Below are positions 381 to 8,824 of a stretch of DNA of 8,837 nucleotides, piece after piece. The position numbers were made by a program, and so were the translations under genes. The notes beneath the pieces were generated by a model, which was not told the DNA's origin, searched no databases, and saw only the letters and a program-made list of their open reading frames with translations. The DNA is from Paenibacillus sp. (GTDB lineage Bacteria > Bacillota > Bacilli > Paenibacillales > Paenibacillaceae). How positions within the stretch are numbered: the first letter of the stretch is position 1; the number at the start of each line of letters is the position of its first letter. The DNA lies in contig JAQSXN010000118.1 of NCBI GenBank assembly GCA_029256665.1, positions 1 to 8,837 on the forward strand. The letters run 5' to 3'.

Positions 381-1340
381 TTATGTCCGGACCGCTATAA
401 TATGGCGCTCGATACCGTTGTAGTCGGTAATGATCGCGATATCGTCCCAAGCGCCGATCTCGCGCATCAGCCCCGCGACGACGCGCGGCTGATGGATGCC
501 GAGCTCGAAGGCCACGATGCGAGGCATCGCGGGGAGCAGCGGCAGCTGCTCCAGCATGCGGCGGTACGGATCCAGCCCGTCCGCCCCGCCTTCCAGCGCG
601 AGACGCGGCTCATGGTCGCGCACCTCGCGCTGCAGCCCGTCCATATCCGCCGCCGGGATGTAGGGCGGATTGGACACGAGCACGTCGATGCGGCTCCCCC
701 TGGCTATGAAGGGAGCCAGCAGGTCGCCCTGCACGAACGTAACGCGGTCCGACGCCTTGTGGCGGGCTGCGTTCGCGCGGGCGACCTCAAGCGCGTCCGG
801 AGACAGATCGGACGCGCTCAGGCGCCAGCCGTGACGCTGCGCAGCCAGCGTCACGGCGATCGCTCCGCTGCCGGTGCCGACGTCGACGACCGTCGGCGCC
901 GCAGCGATCGCTTCGGCGCTGCCCGAGGACGCGGGCATCGCTTGAACCGTGGCCGCCGGCCAGAGCCGATCGGCGGCCGCCAGCACCCCCTCGACGAGCA
1001 ACTCCGTCTCGGGGCGCGGGATCAGGACGGCCGGCGTCACCGCGAACGGCCGTCCGAAGAACCATTCCTCGCCGATCACGTACTGGAGCGGCTCGCCCGT
1101 CGCGCGGCGGCGCACCAGCGCCTGCCACTCCTCCCCCTTGTCCGGCGGGAGGAGATCGTTCCAGGCGAGCAGCAGCGCCGCGCGGTCAATCCCCAACACA
1201 TGCAGGAGCAGACGCTCCGCATGGCTGCGCCCATCCTCGACGCCGCTCGTTTCCAGCCATGCTCCCGCTTTCACGCATGCCTGCCTGAACGTCATCGGCA
1301 GCTCGTACCACCGTTCCTCCGCCTTAGCCTCTTGTCCCAT
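381..1340 (-). CDS. prmC: Peptide chain release factor N5-glutamine methyltransferase PrmC
   Basis: PrmC uses S-adenosylmethionine to methylate the glutamine of the GGQ motif of RF1 and RF2 in the cytoplasm, which raises termination efficiency. With the chosen start the protein has 319 residues. An N-terminal helical substrate-binding domain contains GEPLQYVIG (about 82-90) and LIPRPETELL (about 106-115). The Rossmann methyltransferase domain has the SAM loop DVGTGSGAIA (about 153-162) and the catalytic NPPY tetrapeptide (about 224-227) that binds the target glutamine amide. The product is longer than the usual 280-290 residues, mainly because of an alanine/proline-rich linker of about 20 residues before the SAM loop. 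The ATG at 1338-1340 is preferred because GGGGAG lies 9 bases upstream. An in-frame GTG at 1385 and an ATG at 1364 have poor ribosome sites. The gene is visibly more GC-rich than the glyoxalase and ecs genes. It lies downstream of prfA, as in Bacillus, but is separated from it by a terminator and repeats. Confidence 0.95.
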   Translation of the reverse strand: MGQEAKAEERWYELPMTFRQACVKAGAWLETSGVEDGRSHAERLLLHVLGIDRAALLLAWNDLLPPDKGEEWQALVRRRATGEPLQYVIGEEWFFGRPFAVTPAVLIPRPETELLVEGVLAAADRLWPAATVQAMPASSGSAEAIAAAPTVVDVGTGSGAIAVTLAAQRHGWRLSASDLSPDALEVARANAARHKASDRVTFVQGDLLAPFIARGSRIDVLVSNPPYIPAADMDGLQREVRDHEPRLALEGGADGLDPYRRMLEQLPLLPAMPRIVAFELGIHQPRVVAGLMREIGAWDDIAIITDYNGIERHIIAVRT

Positions 1341-1447
1341 TGCTACCCGCTCCCCGCCATTCATCTCGAATCGCCAACATGCCACTTCGTCCGTACGTTT
1401 ACTTCTATCTATTTACTCCGCCAGCCATCAGCTTGCCCTCACAACTC

Positions 1448-1740: not shown

Positions 1741-2817
1741 TTAGATGCCCATCGTCTCGCGTTCCAGCAGATCGGCTTGCTCGGCGATCGTAAGAGACGA
1801 GATAATCTCGTTCATGTCGCCGTTCATGACGGAATCCAGCTTGTGGAGCGTCAAGTTGATGCGATGGTCGGTTACGCGGCTCTGAGGAAAGTTGTACGTG
1901 CGGATCCGCTCGCTGCGGTCGCCCGTGCCGACTTTGCTCTTGCGTTCGCCGGCGTACTTCGCTTCTTCCTCTTGGCGCTTGATATCGAAGATCCGCGCGC
2001 GCAATACTTGGAGCGCCTTCGCTTTGTTGTCGTTCTGGGACTTGCCGTCCTGACATGTCGCCATGATGCCCGTCGGCACATGAAGCACGCGTACGGCCGA
2101 CTTCGTCGTATTGACGGACTGTCCGCCGGCGCCGCTTGAGCAGAACGTATCGATACGAATATCCTTGTCGTGTATCTCGATCTCCACGTCCTCTACCTCC
2201 GGCATGACCGCAACCGTCGACGTCGACGTATGGATGCGGCCGCCGGATTCCGTAACCGGAATACGCTGCACGCGATGCGCGCCGCTCTCGTACTTCAGCT
2301 TGCTGTACGCGCCCTTGCCGTTCACCATAAAGATTACCTCTTTGAATCCGCCCAGGTCGTTTTCGCTGAAATCCATCAACTCTACTCGCCAGCCCTGCGC
2401 ATCGGCAAACTTGGTGTACATGCGGTACAGGTCGTAAGCGAACAACGCCGCTTCGTCGCCGCCGGCAGCGCCGCGGATTTCGACGATTACGTTTTTGTCG
2501 TCGTTCGGATCTTTCGGCAGCAGCACGACGCGGATTTTTTCTTCCAGCTCTTCTTTGCGCGGAGTCAGCTCGTCGATTTCCATCTTGACCATCTCGCGCA
2601 TCTCGTCGTCGAGCTTCTCGCCCAGCATTTGCTTGGCATCATCCAGTTGCTCCGCGACTTGTTTATATTCCGTATAAGTTTCATACGCTTCTTGTAAATC
2701 CGACTGTTCCTTGGACAGCTCTCTCAGCCGCTTGGGATCGCTGGACACGTCCGGATCGCACAACAGCTCGCTCAGCTTCTCATATCGGTCGGCCAGTGCT
2801 TGTAAACGGTCAAACAC
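1741..2817 (-). CDS. prfA: Peptide chain release factor 1 (RF1)
   Basis: RF1 recognises UAA and UAG in the ribosomal A site and triggers hydrolysis of the peptidyl-tRNA ester. Using the GTG start at 2815-2817 the product has 358 residues, close to the usual Bacillus length. A charged helical N-terminal domain comes first. The codon-recognition tripeptide PVT (about 187-189) lies in [20 protein letters not shown]; this P-x-T type marks RF1, while RF2 has SPF. The catalytic GGQ (about 231-233) lies in [17 protein letters not shown], and the conserved QSQN-like [12 protein letters not shown] and [18 protein letters not shown] segments follow. The start was chosen because the protein then begins (M)[14 protein letters not shown], like Bacillus RF1, and because GAGGTGA (2823-2829) sits 5 bases upstream. 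An in-frame GTG three codons earlier (2826) would overlap that ribosome site. An extended -10 promoter lies upstream and a strong terminator downstream, so it appears monocistronic here. Its GGQ glutamine is the substrate of PrmC, encoded next door. Confidence 0.97.
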
Positions 2818-2822
2818 GTTCG

Positions 2823-2829
2823 TCACCTC
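2823..2829 (-). promoter_or_regulatory. Ribosome binding site that sets the prfA start
   Basis: GAGGTGA on the minus strand, 5 bases before the GTG at 2817. It overlaps the alternative upstream GTG at 2826, which argues that translation begins at 2817. Confidence 0.7.
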
Positions 2830-2856
2830 GGTTTAATTTCCTTTAGATTATTCTTA

Positions 2857-2885
2857 AGTATACCATATCGTGCCCCGTTATTCGA
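2857..2885 (-). promoter_or_regulatory. Predicted prfA promoter (extended -10)
   Basis: On the minus strand, TATACT (2857-2862) is preceded by TG one base upstream, giving TGGTATACT, a strong extended -10 for sigma-A. Seventeen bases further up, TCGAAT (2880-2885) is a poor -35 (3 of 6 matches), which an extended -10 can tolerate. Transcription would start about 30 bases ahead of the prfA GTG. The DnaA-box array begins roughly 50 bp upstream of the -35. Confidence 0.6.
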
Positions 2886-2932
2886 TATGTGGTTTACTTT
2901 AACATCGCGGCGCGGACGGTGACCCCAAAAAA

Positions 2933-3028
2933 CTAATCACAGCTTGTCCACAAAACAGCCTGTTTTATCCACATTTATTTCCCGACTTGTCCACAGCGTG
3001 TGCACAGCCTGTGCACATCTTGTCCACA
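2933..3028 (+). promoter_or_regulatory. Phased cluster of DnaA-box-like sites
   Basis: Seven 9-mers in the same orientation resemble the DnaA box TTATNCACA. They are CTAATCACA (2933-2941), TTGTCCACA (2944-2952), TTATCCACA (2965-2973, a perfect match), TTGTCCACA (2987-2995), GTGTGCACA (2998-3006), CTGTGCACA (3009-3017) and TTGTCCACA (3020-3028). Mismatches to the consensus are 2, 1, 0, 1, 2, 2 and 1. Start-to-start distances are 11, 21, 22, 11, 11 and 11 bp, so all sites fall on nearly the same face of the helix. A further one-mismatch site in reverse orientation is TTTGGATAA (3080-3088), and a two-mismatch one is at 2888-2896. No dnaA, dnaN or AT-rich unwinding region is nearby, so this is unlikely to be oriC. 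A DnaA-titration or replication-control cluster, or DnaA control of prfA, is more likely. Confidence 0.7.
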
Positions 3029-3181
3029 TCGAGGAAATAAGCGGCTTTTTTCCTGCTTTTGAACAGAATTTTGCGACTTTTTGGATAACTATTCATCAGG
3101 AGCAACCGACTCACACCAAATGGTAATTGTTACTAGTGCGAGACCTTTCGGAGATGAGCGGCCGCGTTGAAGCGGAAGTTT
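3029..3181. other. Intergenic remainder between DnaA-box cluster and ecsB
   Basis: Apart from the possible reverse DnaA box at 3080-3088 I see no gene, no promoter and no convincing terminator for ecsB here. The short CCGC/GCGG arms near 3163-3176 lack a U tract. Termination of the ecs transcript is therefore unexplained within this stretch. Confidence 0.5.
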
Positions 3182-4417
3182 TTATCGCATATAAGAATTT
3201 CTGCTAATCCCCCACCAAATCAATCCGCATACCGCCGCTGCAGGAACAATCGCCCATAGCCCGGCCCACCTGTACCCCGCCAAGCCGGACCAGACGGATA
3301 GATGGGGCAGCAGCAGCCAAAATCGGGATAACCGAATCGCTCGTCCGACCGCCTCGCCTTCCCAGGGAAACTGTGCCACGAATTCCTCCGCGTACCACTG
3401 CTCCCATTGCATGCGCAGCCAAGAAACACCGATGACGAGGAATCCTATTATTAAGGCAAAAGCGGCGGGCGGAGACACCAGCGTTGACGCGTACGACGTT
3501 ACGGACAGGAATCCGATCCATATCCGAAGAGGCACCATCGACCGCAAGAAAGCGATCAATCTCATCTCGGCCAACAGCGTACCCGTATCCGTCCCTCGAA
3601 ATAAGCGTTGGGAACGCCTAAATAACAGCGGACGCTTCGCCTTAACGATGGACTTCGACGGTATGACCTGGCTCATCAACAATTCCGTGCTGCTCATTCG
3701 CGCCTTGCGCTCGCTTTTCACCTCGGCCTCATAATGAATGCCTGTTCGCAAGCAAATAAACAACGACAGCGGAAATACGAGCGCCATGCCAATCCAGGCC
3801 GGCATAAAATCGGATGAGCCTGGCGAAAGCATAAGCATCGGCATCAGATAAGCTGCCGCTAATACGATCAGCGCCACGCCTTGCAGCAGCCATTGCCGCC
3901 AACCTCGCGCGATACTTTTCAGCTGATGGAAGACCATGGATATGAACATTCCATACAGCCAAGCATACAGATAGGCCGCTCCGACATGCTCCCATTCCAT
4001 TCCCCCAGACTTAATCAGATAAGGCAGGAGTATGGCAAACGGAATCAGCAGCACAAGCGCCTGCATCACGAACGAATAGAACATCCCGTACCTCTTCAGC
4101 ATCTGCAGCCACCTTGGCCGTTGCAACAGGAACAACCGATCCGCTTCCTCCACATAGGTTCGAATACGACCAAACGCCATCAATACAAAAATGACGATCG
4201 GGTACAGCGCCGTCCATGGAACATCAGTCGCCCATTCGGGCACTCGTTGCCAAAGCTCCCGATAAAGCCCGCCGAATATGACGAGACCCGGAATAACCAA
4301 ATATAGCCATACCGTCCAATCGAGTACACTATTCCATACCCGGAATTGCTCCTTGCCATTGTTCTTCAGCCGAATAAGGAATAAGCGTCCTGGCGTCAAC
4401 AACGTCTTGTCCGTCAT
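3182..4417 (-). CDS. ecsB: ABC transporter permease, EcsB family
   Basis: EcsB is the membrane subunit of the EcsAB ABC exporter. In Bacillus subtilis loss of Ecs impairs secretion, competence and sporulation and affects intramembrane proteolysis by RasP. The related PptAB of streptococci and enterococci exports short peptide pheromones. The product has 411 residues, close to the family length (about 400). It shows hydrophobic segments near 34-51, 68-84, 113-135, 145-164, 178-197, 205-223, 300-334 (probably two) and 384-403. A basic cytoplasmic loop lies at about 230-285. The family-typical stretch EEADRLFLLQRP lies at about 90-101, after the second segment. The ATG at 4417 is preferred: GGGGGTGA sits 5 bases upstream, directly after the ecsA stop, whereas the in-frame GTG at 4426 has no spacer to its ribosome site. 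It is 13 bp downstream of ecsA and surely co-transcribed. No ecsC follows within the window. Confidence 0.88.
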   Translation of the reverse strand: MTDKTLLTPGRLFLIRLKNNGKEQFRVWNSVLDWTVWLYLVIPGLVIFGGLYRELWQRVPEWATDVPWTALYPIVIFVLMAFGRIRTYVEEADRLFLLQRPRWLQMLKRYGMFYSFVMQALVLLIPFAILLPYLIKSGGMEWEHVGAAYLYAWLYGMFISMVFHQLKSIARGWRQWLLQGVALIVLAAAYLMPMLMLSPGSSDFMPAWIGMALVFPLSLFICLRTGIHYEAEVKSERKARMSSTELLMSQVIPSKSIVKAKRPLLFRRSQRLFRGTDTGTLLAEMRLIAFLRSMVPLRIWIGFLSVTSYASTLVSPPAAFALIIGFLVIGVSWLRMQWEQWYAEEFVAQFPWEGEAVGRAIRLSRFWLLLPHLSVWSGLAGYRWAGLWAIVPAAAVCGLIWWGISRNSYMR

Positions 4418-4422
4418 CGCCT

Positions 4423-4430
4423 TCACCCCC
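4423..4430 (-). promoter_or_regulatory. Ribosome binding site that sets the ecsB start
   Basis: GGGGGTGA on the minus strand begins right after the ecsA TGA (4431-4433) and is 5 bases ahead of the ATG at 4417. This spacing suits the ATG and not the GTG at 4426, which lies inside the site. Confidence 0.6.
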
Positions 4431-5329: not shown

Positions 5330-5352
5330 AAGAATGAACCGTTCATTCTTAA
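5328..5352. promoter_or_regulatory. Perfect 25-bp palindromic operator, probably for the adjacent TetR protein
   Basis: The arms TTAAGAATGAAC (5328-5339) and GTTCATTCTTAA (5341-5352) are exact reverse complements around a single C at 5340. Length, symmetry and the GAAC-x-GTTC core suit a TetR-family dimer. It overlaps the last two bases of the -10 and the predicted transcription start, so a bound protein would block RNA polymerase. The only regulator in the window is the TetR gene at the end of this transcript, so autorepression is the simplest reading (inference). Confidence 0.85.
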
Positions 5353-5503: not shown

Positions 5504-6982
5504 ATGAATACGGAACGGGCTATTATTATTGGCGGCGGGATCGCCGGACTGCTTGCAGCGAAAGTATTATCCGCGTTTTATAACGAGGTCGTGATCGTGG
5601 ACCGGGACGATTTTCCCCAGCGGCCTGAGCTCCGTCCCGGAACGCCTCAAGCGTTCCAGCCTCACCGCTTTACGCCTCGCAGCCGCACGATTCTGAATCG
5701 TTATTTTCCAGGCCTCATCGATGAATTAATCGCGCAAGGCGCTCGCCCTACGCATGGAGTAACGACTCATCTCATTAACCCTTATGGCCGGATGATCGCC
5801 GTCGAGCAAGTTCACGACGCATCGTTCAGCCGAGCTCTATTCGAATGGGTTGTTCGAAGGTATGTGAATGATATCCCGAATGTTCGTTTGCTCGGGTTGA
5901 ACGAAGCGATACAACTCCAAACCGCCGAAGATCGTTCGCGGGTTACCGGCATTATCGTTCGGGAGCGCGCCTCGGGCGAACGTCGGCAGTCCGCGATGAC
6001 GGCAGACCTGGTCGTCGACACCGGCGGCCGATTTTCCAAAACCGCGCAATGGCTCTCGGAGCTCGGTTACGAAGCGCCGGAGCCCGAGCGATTAAAGATC
6101 TCTTTGGGCTACAGCACTCGGCGTTACCGCATTCCCCCGGGCCGCAAGGAAACGGCGCAACATATACGCATGGAAGGCAATCCTCTTACTACGTCGCCTG
6201 CAGCCGCATTATCCATCATCGAAAACGATATCGCGGAAATGGTGCTTTGGAACTTGAACGGCCGGTATCCTTCCACCGACCCGGAACGATTCGAACAAGA
6301 AATCCGCCGGATCGGGAATCCCCTTTTCAACGAAGCGTTGGATGGGCTGGAGCCGATTGGACCGCCGCGCGGCTTTCGGGTACCTGAACTCATCCGGCAG
6401 CGTTTCGATAAAATGCAGCGATGGCCGTCGGGACTGTTAGTTATGGGTGACGCCATCTGCCAGCTTGATCCCGTATACGGGCAAGGGATGACGCTTGCCG
6501 CAATCGAGGCGGAAATCGTCGAAGCATGTCTTCAACGTCAGCTCAGCGACCCCAAACCCGACTTCGAGCTCGAGGCGCTTAGGCGGATGCAGGATAGCAT
6601 CGAACCGGCCTGGTGGTTGAACGTCGTATCGGATTTGCGTTGGAAAGGCGTAGAATATGTCGGTTCGAAGCCGATCCAAGGCTTGGCGTTCGCGCAGCAT
6701 TACTTCGACCGAGTACTGGAATGGTCAACGGAACAAGCCAATTACGATATCTTTGGGTTATATTGGCTTGTGAATTCCTTGTTCTTGCATCCCCAACAAT
6801 TGATTCGTGCGGAGTTCATCGATTTCTTGCTCTCTGGAGGAGGTTCCGGCGCAGCGAAGGAATGGTTGGAGCGATGGATCGAGGAGTCGGATCGGCCGCT
6901 GGAAGAACGATTGTCGGCAACGATCCCTTCCTTCCAAGGCGCATCCTTCGCAACCATTGACGAACTTATGGCGGGGGCATGA
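5504..6982 (+). CDS. FAD-dependent monooxygenase-like oxidoreductase
   Basis: This is a 492-residue cytosolic flavoprotein of the group A hydroxylase/epoxidase fold. The N-terminal dinucleotide-binding motif is GGGIAG (10-15), followed by an acidic FAD-ribose ligand and arginine in VIVDRD (D33, R35). A DTGGR segment (172-176), in the position of the DG motif, and the second FAD motif GDAICQLDPVYGQGM (315-329) follow. The segment RPGTPQAFQPHRF (44-56) recalls the 'R-x-G-x-P-Q-x-x-x-x-H' block of LasC-type epoxidases and related FAD oxidoreductases. The helical C-terminal part (about 350-492) has no motif I know. Substrate is unknown; oxidation or detoxification of a small hydrophobic or aromatic compound is a guess. 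There is no signal peptide or membrane segment. The ATG at 5504 has AGGGAGGA about 9 bases upstream. The tetR gene starts 40 bp downstream, in one transcript, behind a palindromic operator, so expression is probably inducible by a ligand of that regulator. Confidence 0.88.
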   Translation: MNTERAIIIGGGIAGLLAAKVLSAFYNEVVIVDRDDFPQRPELRPGTPQAFQPHRFTPRSRTILNRYFPGLIDELIAQGARPTHGVTTHLINPYGRMIAVEQVHDASFSRALFEWVVRRYVNDIPNVRLLGLNEAIQLQTAEDRSRVTGIIVRERASGERRQSAMTADLVVDTGGRFSKTAQWLSELGYEAPEPERLKISLGYSTRRYRIPPGRKETAQHIRMEGNPLTTSPAAALSIIENDIAEMVLWNLNGRYPSTDPERFEQEIRRIGNPLFNEALDGLEPIGPPRGFRVPELIRQRFDKMQRWPSGLLVMGDAICQLDPVYGQGMTLAAIEAEIVEACLQRQLSDPKPDFELEALRRMQDSIEPAWWLNVVSDLRWKGVEYVGSKPIQGLAFAQHYFDRVLEWSTEQANYDIFGLYWLVNSLFLHPQQLIRAEFIDFLLSGGGSGAAKEWLERWIEESDRPLEERLSATIPSFQGASFATIDELMAGA

Positions 6983-7022: not shown

Positions 7023-7628
7023 GTGACGCCACAGTCCGAAGAACAGTTGATGAAACGGCAAGAAGCTCGAAGACAGCAGATCCTGGATGCCGCCTTAAAG
7101 GTGTTTGCCGTTCGCGGCTTGCACGGGGCCAAGATGAGCCTGATCGCCGAAGAAGCCAAGCTGAGCGCAGGGCAGCTCTACCGCTTTTTCGAATCGAAGG
7201 AAGAGCTGTTCATCACCTTGATCCGCCAAGTTGCCAAAGAAACCGCTCGGGAGATCGGCAATATCTACAATCTCCCCGGTTCCCCTTACCGCAAGCTTCG
7301 CGCCTTTACGGCAACGATTCTGGAGGAGGATGGCGCACAATATCCGTTCAAGCTCATACAGCAAGCCAATACCGATGAACAGGTTCCGGATGAAGCGAAG
7401 CAGCTGCTTGGACAATTTTCCGCGAAACGTTTTGTCGAAGAGCTGCTTCCTTTGTTCGAGGAAGGGCAACGGGTCGGGGATTTCGCGCAAGGCGACGCCC
7501 GCGAGCTCATATCCGCGTTTCTGACGATTTTGTCCGCCGTCATTACCCTTAATATGCCGCTCGATGACGACCATCGCCTGCCGAGCGCGGATTTGCTCAT
7601 GCGAATCGTGGCGGGGCCTGGCGCGTAA
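7023..7628 (+). CDS. TetR/AcrR-family transcriptional regulator
   Basis: This 201-residue DNA-binding repressor has an N-terminal TetR domain. The helix 1 region is RRQQILDAALKVFAVRG, and the helix-turn-helix, about residues 36-58, reads AKMSLIAEEAKLSAGQLYRF and ends in FESKEELF, the family's usual 'Y-x-x-F-x-x-K-E-x-L' signature. The C-terminal ligand and dimer domain is variable and gives no clue to the inducer. The start is GTG at 7023, with GGAG 9 bases upstream. It lies 40 bp after the oxidoreductase gene with no terminator between, so it is translated from the same message. The perfect palindrome at the operon promoter (5328-5352) is the obvious binding site, giving negative autoregulation. 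The product of the upstream enzyme, or its substrate, may be the inducer (inference). The gene converges on nagA with a 17-bp gap. Confidence 0.93.
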   Translation: MTPQSEEQLMKRQEARRQQILDAALKVFAVRGLHGAKMSLIAEEAKLSAGQLYRFFESKEELFITLIRQVAKETAREIGNIYNLPGSPYRKLRAFTATILEEDGAQYPFKLIQQANTDEQVPDEAKQLLGQFSAKRFVEELLPLFEEGQRVGDFAQGDARELISAFLTILSAVITLNMPLDDDHRLPSADLLMRIVAGPGA

Positions 7629-7660: not shown

Positions 7661-8824
7661 TCGATACACCGTTTGCCCGGCAACGACCGTCTCCCGGATC
7701 GCGATACGGCCGGCTCCGTCGTCATGATCGAATAGGGTCAGATGGGCGGGAGCCCCCTTTTCGATTCTTCCCAGCTGTCTGTCGTTCATCACAAGCGCAG
7801 GCCGGAGCGAAGCGGCCTCCGCCGCTTCTGCCAACGTCATATCCGTGTAACGGACGGCATTGGCAATACCGAGATCGAGCGATGCGGCCGATCCCGCCAG
7901 GATATCCGGATTCGCCGCCGTGTGCAACCGCCCGGCCTCCGTCAGCTCGACCTGACCGCCGATAAGGCTGTCATACCGTCCAGGCGGCATACCGCCGAAT
8001 TGGGTGCAATCGCTGACGAGAATCGATTTCTCCCGCTTCGCCCTGAGCATCGCCTTCAGCACCTGCGGTGCAAGATGTTGACCGTCGGGAATAAACGTCG
8101 CCCACAATCGGTCTTCCGCCAATTGATGCCAGATGTAATTCGGGTGCCGGGGCAGCATAGGCTGCGAACCGTTGCCAAGATGGGTCGACAACGTCGCTCC
8201 GGCCAGCACCGCTTGCTCCAGCTGCTTCTCGCTGGCCATCGTATGTCCGATCGCTACTACGATTCCTTGCTTGGCCAGCTTCTCGATGAATGCTATAGCG
8301 CCTTCTCGCTCTGGCGCAAGAGTAACCATGCGAATTCGCCCTTCCGCCGCATCCTGCAGACGCAGGAACTCCTCCCAGTCGGGGTCGCGGGTATGCTCTC
8401 TTGGATGCGCGCCTCTGCTGCCATCCTCGCTGGACAGATAGGGACCCTCCATATGGATGCCCATGATCGAATCGCCGGCGTATTGCCCGCTCCGGACATA
8501 TTCTGCAATAGCGGCCAACGCCTGCTTCATTCGATCGAAGCTTCCCGTAATCACGGTCGGCAAGTAGATGGCCGTCCCGCGCGCGTGCAGCGCTCTCGTG
8601 ACGCCCTCGATGTCTTGCAACGTCGTCCGCTCCGCGTTCAGATCATAACCGCCGAAGCCGTTCACCTGCAGGTCGATCCAACCGGCCGAGATCCATGGCA
8701 ATTCCGCGTTGTTCGCCTGGCCTCCGTCAAGGAGGAGGGGCCGAATGTCCGCAATTACGCCTTCGACAACGTCGATCTGAACCGCCTCTCCGGTAGTCGT
8801 CAGCTTGCCTTGCCGCTTCATCAT
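7646..8824 (-). CDS. nagA: N-acetylglucosamine-6-phosphate deacetylase family protein
   Basis: NagA hydrolyses N-acetylglucosamine 6-phosphate to glucosamine 6-phosphate and acetate in amino-sugar and cell-wall recycling. The 392-residue product is a full-length amidohydrolase. AGWIDLQVNGFGG (47-59) has Q-x-N in place of the usual amidohydrolase H-x-H, as in E. coli NagA. Metal ligands are E126 in HMEGPYLS, H194 in AIGHT and H215 in LSTHLGN. DGQH (247-250) supplies the substrate histidine and D272 in VSDCTQFGG the catalytic acid. The H215 loop reads THLGNGSQPM instead of the common THLFNAM, and the acid loop is followed by GMPPGRY, which marks a divergent subgroup. The exact substrate is therefore less certain. 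The ATG at 8824 has GGAGG 7 bases upstream. No nagB or transport gene is seen within the window, since the upstream side is cut off. Confidence 0.85.
   Translation of the reverse strand: MMKRQGKLTTTGEAVQIDVVEGVIADIRPLLLDGGQANNAELPWISAGWIDLQVNGFGGYDLNAERTTLQDIEGVTRALHARGTAIYLPTVITGSFDRMKQALAAIAEYVRSGQYAGDSIMGIHMEGPYLSSEDGSRGAHPREHTRDPDWEEFLRLQDAAEGRIRMVTLAPEREGAIAFIEKLAKQGIVVAIGHTMASEKQLEQAVLAGATLSTHLGNGSQPMLPRHPNYIWHQLAEDRLWATFIPDGQHLAPQVLKAMLRAKREKSILVSDCTQFGGMPPGRYDSLIGGQVELTEAGRLHTAANPDILAGSAASLDLGIANAVRYTDMTLAEAAEAASLRPALVMNDRQLGRIEKGAPAHLTLFDHDDGAGRIAIRETVVAGQTVYRSDNE

Follow-up and report, generated by a model that had tools for sequence, protein, structure and literature searches.

The window, by which we mean the whole 8,837-nt stretch of Paenibacillus DNA analysed here, carries the gene for peptide chain release factor 1 (prfA), with an ABC ATPase gene and an EcsB-like permease gene upstream of it. 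The genes flanking the region of interest, and a prfA promoter element predicted by eye, are as follows.

381–1385, minus strand: prmC, release factor glutamine methyltransferase, downstream of prfA
1741–2826, minus strand: prfA, peptide chain release factor 1
2857–2865, minus strand: predicted prfA -10 element, TATACT preceded by TGG
3182–4426, minus strand: EcsB-like permease gene (weak family match), the upstream neighbour, its 3′ end towards the array described below

A promoter and terminator scan of positions 2700–3300 found none, and an Rfam search of the whole window gave nothing at gathering scores. Elsewhere in the window a perfect inverted repeat, AAGAATGAACCGTTCATTCTT, was noticed by eye at 5330–5350, upstream of a FAD-dependent oxidoreductase gene (5504–6982), next after which comes a TetR-type regulator gene (7023–7628); the repeat is likely an operator.

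Upstream of prfA, by 118 to 202 bp, lie six DnaA-box-like 9-mers (2944–3028), the nearest about 95 bp upstream of the start of the prfA promoter predicted by eye. The preliminary description had counted seven sites with start-to-start distances of 11, 21, 22, 11, 11 and 11 bp. Their common orientation was borne out, all six counted sites reading on the plus strand, antisense to prfA, and the distances of 21, 22, 11, 11 and 11 bp apply among these six; but the seventh site, at 2933, from which the first 11-bp step leads, has three mismatches to TTATCCACA and was left out of the box count.

2933–2941, plus strand: CTAATCACA, the formerly counted seventh site
2944–2952, plus strand: TTGTCCACA, DnaA-box-like site, one mismatch to TTATCCACA
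2965–2973, plus strand: TTATCCACA, perfect DnaA box
2987–2995, plus strand: TTGTCCACA, DnaA-box-like site, first in a run of four with 11-bp pitch
2998–3006, plus strand: GTGTGCACA, DnaA-box-like site, three mismatches, core palindromic
3009–3017, plus strand: CTGTGCACA, DnaA-box-like site, three mismatches, core palindromic
3020–3028, plus strand: TTGTCCACA, DnaA-box-like site, last of the four

At the place matching 2933 the relative G028 has TTAATCACA, with two mismatches as judged by eye, and the site is a weak box at best. The last four boxes are separated by gaps of 2 bp, and both TGTGCACA cores, being palindromic, are readable on either strand. The site at 3009, the TC spacer that precedes the last box (3018–3019) and the box at 3020 together form the 19-mer core found in relatives, among which the other spacers vary.

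The array is far beyond chance. When the gap between prfA and the EcsB-like gene (2827–3181) was shuffled 20,000 times with dinucleotides preserved, the largest number of boxes on one strand was three (in 6 of the 20,000 shuffles) against the six observed. The strict three-box pattern matched the window's own assembly (4.14 Mb in 630 contigs, 64% complete) at the array only, with four overlapping matches, and its reversed control gave none.

We compared the region upstream of prfA in 110 genomes of the order: all 51 sampled for the genus (G065 being represented by only 468 bp), 39 of the 40 chosen from elsewhere in the family (all but G416) and 20 of the 23 sampled from other families (all but G038, G045 and G053). 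An array was scored where at least three boxes in one orientation, antisense to prfA, lay no more than 500 bp from prfA. Arrays were present in 17 of the 51 genus genomes, with none in the other genera (0/39) or the other families (0/20). The remaining 34 genus genomes and the 59 others of the order have no array here, which counts against the reading preferred below; any role of the array must be dispensable or met elsewhere. Within 310 bp of prfA, 86 boxes in the 17 arrays run antisense to the gene, versus 5 non-palindromic boxes in the opposite direction; the corresponding counts for the 93 array-less genomes are 3 and 9. Adjacent spacings in the arrays (n = 69) were most often 11 bp (30 cases), followed by 22 bp (8), 21 bp (6) and 12 bp (5).

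Conservation is concentrated in the boxes. Between the window and its nearest relative, G028, 52 of 54 box bases are identical, compared with 16 of 31 spacer bases and 34 of 100 ungapped flank bases, and box identity exceeded flank identity in all eight pairs compared, the smallest contrast being that of G067 and G029 (35/36 vs 78/100). In 11 of the 51 genus genomes the pair TGTGCACA-NN-TTGTCCACA has one exact match per genome, always with TC as the spacer; none of the 343 other genomes of the family has it. Among named genomes it had 40 matches, of which the 10 in Paenibacillus all have TC, as does one of the other 30. With three further arrays added to the 11 genus core matches the TC spacer is still invariant, more so than some positions within the boxes. 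In the 14 core-type arrays the nearest box stands 74 to 174 bp from the start of the prfA match. A prfA codon tree placed 14 arrays in one group of 15 (the array-less member being G064) with a weak support of 55, and the divergent arrays of G024, G002 and G065 in a separate group with a support of 100, a topology that fits one gain with losses and two independent gains alike.

That the sites are DnaA boxes, to which binding is predicted, is well supported by comparison: their spectrum is like that of oriC of the genus, they are selectively conserved, and the pattern drawn from them finds loci that are bound by DnaA in B. subtilis. The oriC regions of 11 genus relatives have a box make-up similar to that of the array, TTGTCCACA included, and in 9 of the 11 two CTATGCACA sites stand 11 bp apart downstream of dnaA. 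Across the 51 genus genomes the strict pattern gave 65 overlapping matches, spread over 31 genomes, among them the prfA site in 14 (its reversed control matched 14 times, in 8 genomes); it undercounts, since it missed 3 of the 17 arrays (G024, G002 and G065). Further clusters lay upstream of sda in L197 (Pfam Sda, 9e-14) and, judged by eye, upstream of the same sda-like ORF in L203 and L204, where an NCBIfam search of the two ORFs assigned no family; downstream of tsaD in L196; and adjoining serS (L194 and L210) and tadA (L193), besides other places. Several of the three-box clusters of the genus flank tRNA or translation genes, like the ywlC and gcp clusters of B. subtilis. Context was retrieved for 8 of the 30 core matches outside Paenibacillus, and a gene was assigned in five (L086, L093 and L109 being the others): in Alicyclobacillus contaminans (L099) and a Streptomycetaceae bin (L102) the core pair is directly downstream of dnaA; in Sporolactobacillus kofuensis and S. 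nakayamae it lies upstream of rlmH; and in Levilactobacillus andaensis it is at the start of that gene. We take the B. subtilis genes gcp and yydA to be tsaD and rlmH, respectively. The regions most strongly bound by B. subtilis DnaA in vitro are reported to include sda, gcp, ywlC and yydA (PMC4447404).

The geometry of the array fits the same identity. Low-affinity sites in E. coli oriC are described as running in one direction 2 bp apart (PMC6727663), and T. maritima DnaA is reported to form most dimer complex on boxes so arranged (PMC10316083). The array resembles these E. coli sites and the DnaA-oligomerizing region of T. maritima oriC in its same-direction 9-mers with 2-bp gaps; unlike it, both are parts of origins and adjoin an unwinding element, whereas no DnaA-trio run was found at the array. 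Further observations count against a DnaA-box cluster: the invariance of the TC spacer, which simple box spacing leaves unexplained; the three mismatches in each TGTGCACA site, together with an excess of G at box position 3 (39/86 in arrays vs 15/140 at genus oriC); and the matches of the reversed control noted above.

Our preferred reading, to which we give a probability of roughly 0.6, is that the array is an extra-origin DnaA-box cluster at which ATP-DnaA is predicted to assemble, holding DnaA from oriC. It consists of several boxes close together outside oriC, in excess of chance; it is spelled in the same letters as the oriC boxes of 11 genus relatives, with more G at position 3; and it is near oriC as judged in three array-bearing relatives. 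The distance to oriC was taken from relatives only, because a search of the window's own assembly (64% complete) found no full-length dnaA. With single contigs treated as circular (G013 included), prfA and dnaA are about 236 kb apart in G013, 117 kb in G002 and 185 kb in G033, the three array-bearing genomes with both genes on one contig, and 291 to 484 kb apart in ten array-less genomes. ATP-DnaA would assemble head to tail along the six one-way boxes, four of them with 2-bp gaps; the TTATCCACA and TTGTCCACA sites would nucleate the complex and the weaker TGTGCACA sites would be filled cooperatively. DnaA held there would be withheld from oriC, and its presence could secondarily affect the prfA promoter. 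Titration is proposed because in relatives less than half a megabase separates prfA from dnaA, and the locus would be replicated shortly after initiation. On the sequence evidence the array likely titrates DnaA, and it may set prfA transcription as well; as a sink that probably holds DnaA it would help to time chromosome copying or to tune prfA.

Such clusters are already known elsewhere, and the array is a new example. E. coli datA is described as an extra-origin DnaA-box site that lowers the available ATP-DnaA, working with IHF (PMC10950094); the likeness to the array is that of a DnaA-box site outside the origin, and no sequence homology is claimed. The array also resembles the oriC-proximal clusters of B. 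subtilis, in having several boxes outside oriC, in occupying a gap near oriC (as placed in relatives) and in lying close to the prfA-ywlC gene group, and the clusters at sda and tsaD (gcp) are present in the genus too. It differs from the B. subtilis clusters, among them that of the ywlB-ywlC region, in standing upstream of prfA, not ywlC, in being confined to part of one genus, and in its six same-direction boxes in 11-bp steps; moreover, binding and an effect on initiation are known for the B. subtilis clusters, whereas the array is known from its DNA sequence. Removal of six clusters from B. subtilis is reported to cause early initiation, strongly only when all six are gone (PMC5295017, PMC13220808). 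One of these sources, a review, also states that no cluster with a significant part in controlling initiation has been identified in B. subtilis (PMC5295017), which counts against the preferred reading. A search for literature on DnaA boxes in Paenibacillus, or on DnaA together with prfA, at the level of titles and listings, gave nothing on the array.

The cluster at ywlB-ywlC of B. subtilis named in the preliminary description does exist (PMC4447404), but its position differs from that of the array and only the neighbourhood is common. In G071 the start of ywlC is 5.6 kb downstream from that of prfA, and 14 neighbourhoods, each of 20 kb, showed no three-box cluster from prfA to 16 kb downstream. 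Identity with the ywlC cluster was accordingly rejected, there being no cluster in the matching position in the 14 neighbourhoods, with ywlC placed in G071. Two of the 14 (G010 and G036) have no cluster at all. Seven of the 51 genus genomes, all of them without an array at prfA, carry a strict cluster 16.4–17.3 kb downstream of the prfA start (L205–L209, L250 and L252), next to an oppF-like gene that precedes it (confirmed with Pfam in G071), its boxes mostly in the array's direction relative to prfA. Among 63 other genomes of the order, 34 of which had a strict match, two clusters lay within 3 kb upstream of prfA (G052 and G057), where rough arithmetic would give about 0.5 within 20 kb. The coincidence of a shared prfA-ywlC neighbourhood is, by a rough estimate, not significant; DnaA clusters concentrate near oriC in any case. 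Turnover of clusters inside one neighbourhood is an attractive idea, not statistically established.

The main rival to titration is control of prfA. Here DnaA would bind the array, and the selected role would be to set prfA-prmC transcription by the level of DnaA; we regard this as possible but on balance unlikely. The sites stand just upstream of the predicted prfA promoter, and the array stays beside prfA where ychF, the upstream neighbour in most array-bearing relatives (not ecs), is missing from the stretch compared (the window's own genome, G000, with G060, G004 and G029; for G065 there was too little DNA for this check) or displaced to 1.4 kb (G013). Precedent comes from B. subtilis, in which DnaA is reported to activate sda and appears to repress ywlC (PMC4447404). 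Against this, the distance from array to prfA varies, any cluster would find obvious free room in the gap upstream of prfA, an insertion between the array and prfA would be selected against regardless, and array-less relatives retain the -10 region (by eye). The ecs genes, also put forward earlier as a target, are unlikely to be controlled from the array, since the EcsB-like gene has its 3′ end before the boxes are reached, and most array-bearing relatives have ychF upstream instead of ecs.

The invariant TC spacer (11 genus cores and three more arrays), conserved above some box positions, would be accounted for if a different regulator with a DnaA-box-like site recognised the core TGTGCACATCTTGTCCACA as its unit, and the palindromic TGTGCACA is like many repressor sites. 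We think this very improbable: the exact core is carried by 11 of 394 family genomes, once in each, so that no regulon is visible, the remaining boxes vary as oriC boxes do, and the strict pattern also finds the sda and tsaD sites. The dense boxes might instead mark a second or relic replication origin, but in four oriC sequences a trio run follows the last box and here it is missing; allowing at most one mismatch, the one trio form sought, CTACTACTA, has a single match in the window, at 8254, and for lack of a trio run at the array a second origin was rejected as extremely improbable. Chance or a neutral repeat, which the lineage restriction (34/51 genus genomes array-less) might suggest, is contradicted by the shuffles and by the keeping of boxes while flanks diverge, and has next to nothing left to recommend it.

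In the literature searched, most descriptions of extra-origin DnaA clusters concern E. coli and B. subtilis. Because the array is present in some close relatives and absent from others, and other members of the genus have a second cluster position, it can be tested by comparison whether the site, the gene touched or the box number matters, and the regular geometry offers a simple natural substrate for DnaA cooperativity. More speculatively, and to our minds doubtfully, the release factor 1 promoter of a Paenibacillus lineage might bear a DnaA filament site that is phase-locked and one-way, a sink near oriC coupling translation termination capacity to replication initiation, with such sinks turning over in one neighbourhood (at prfA; after oppF in sister species; at ywlC in Bacillus) and settling beside translation genes.

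As a separate observation, four genomes of other families (G039:C14, G047:C38, G049:C66 and G054:C7) have a near-identical three-box cluster about 4–5 kb upstream of a second release factor gene, which we infer to be prfB.
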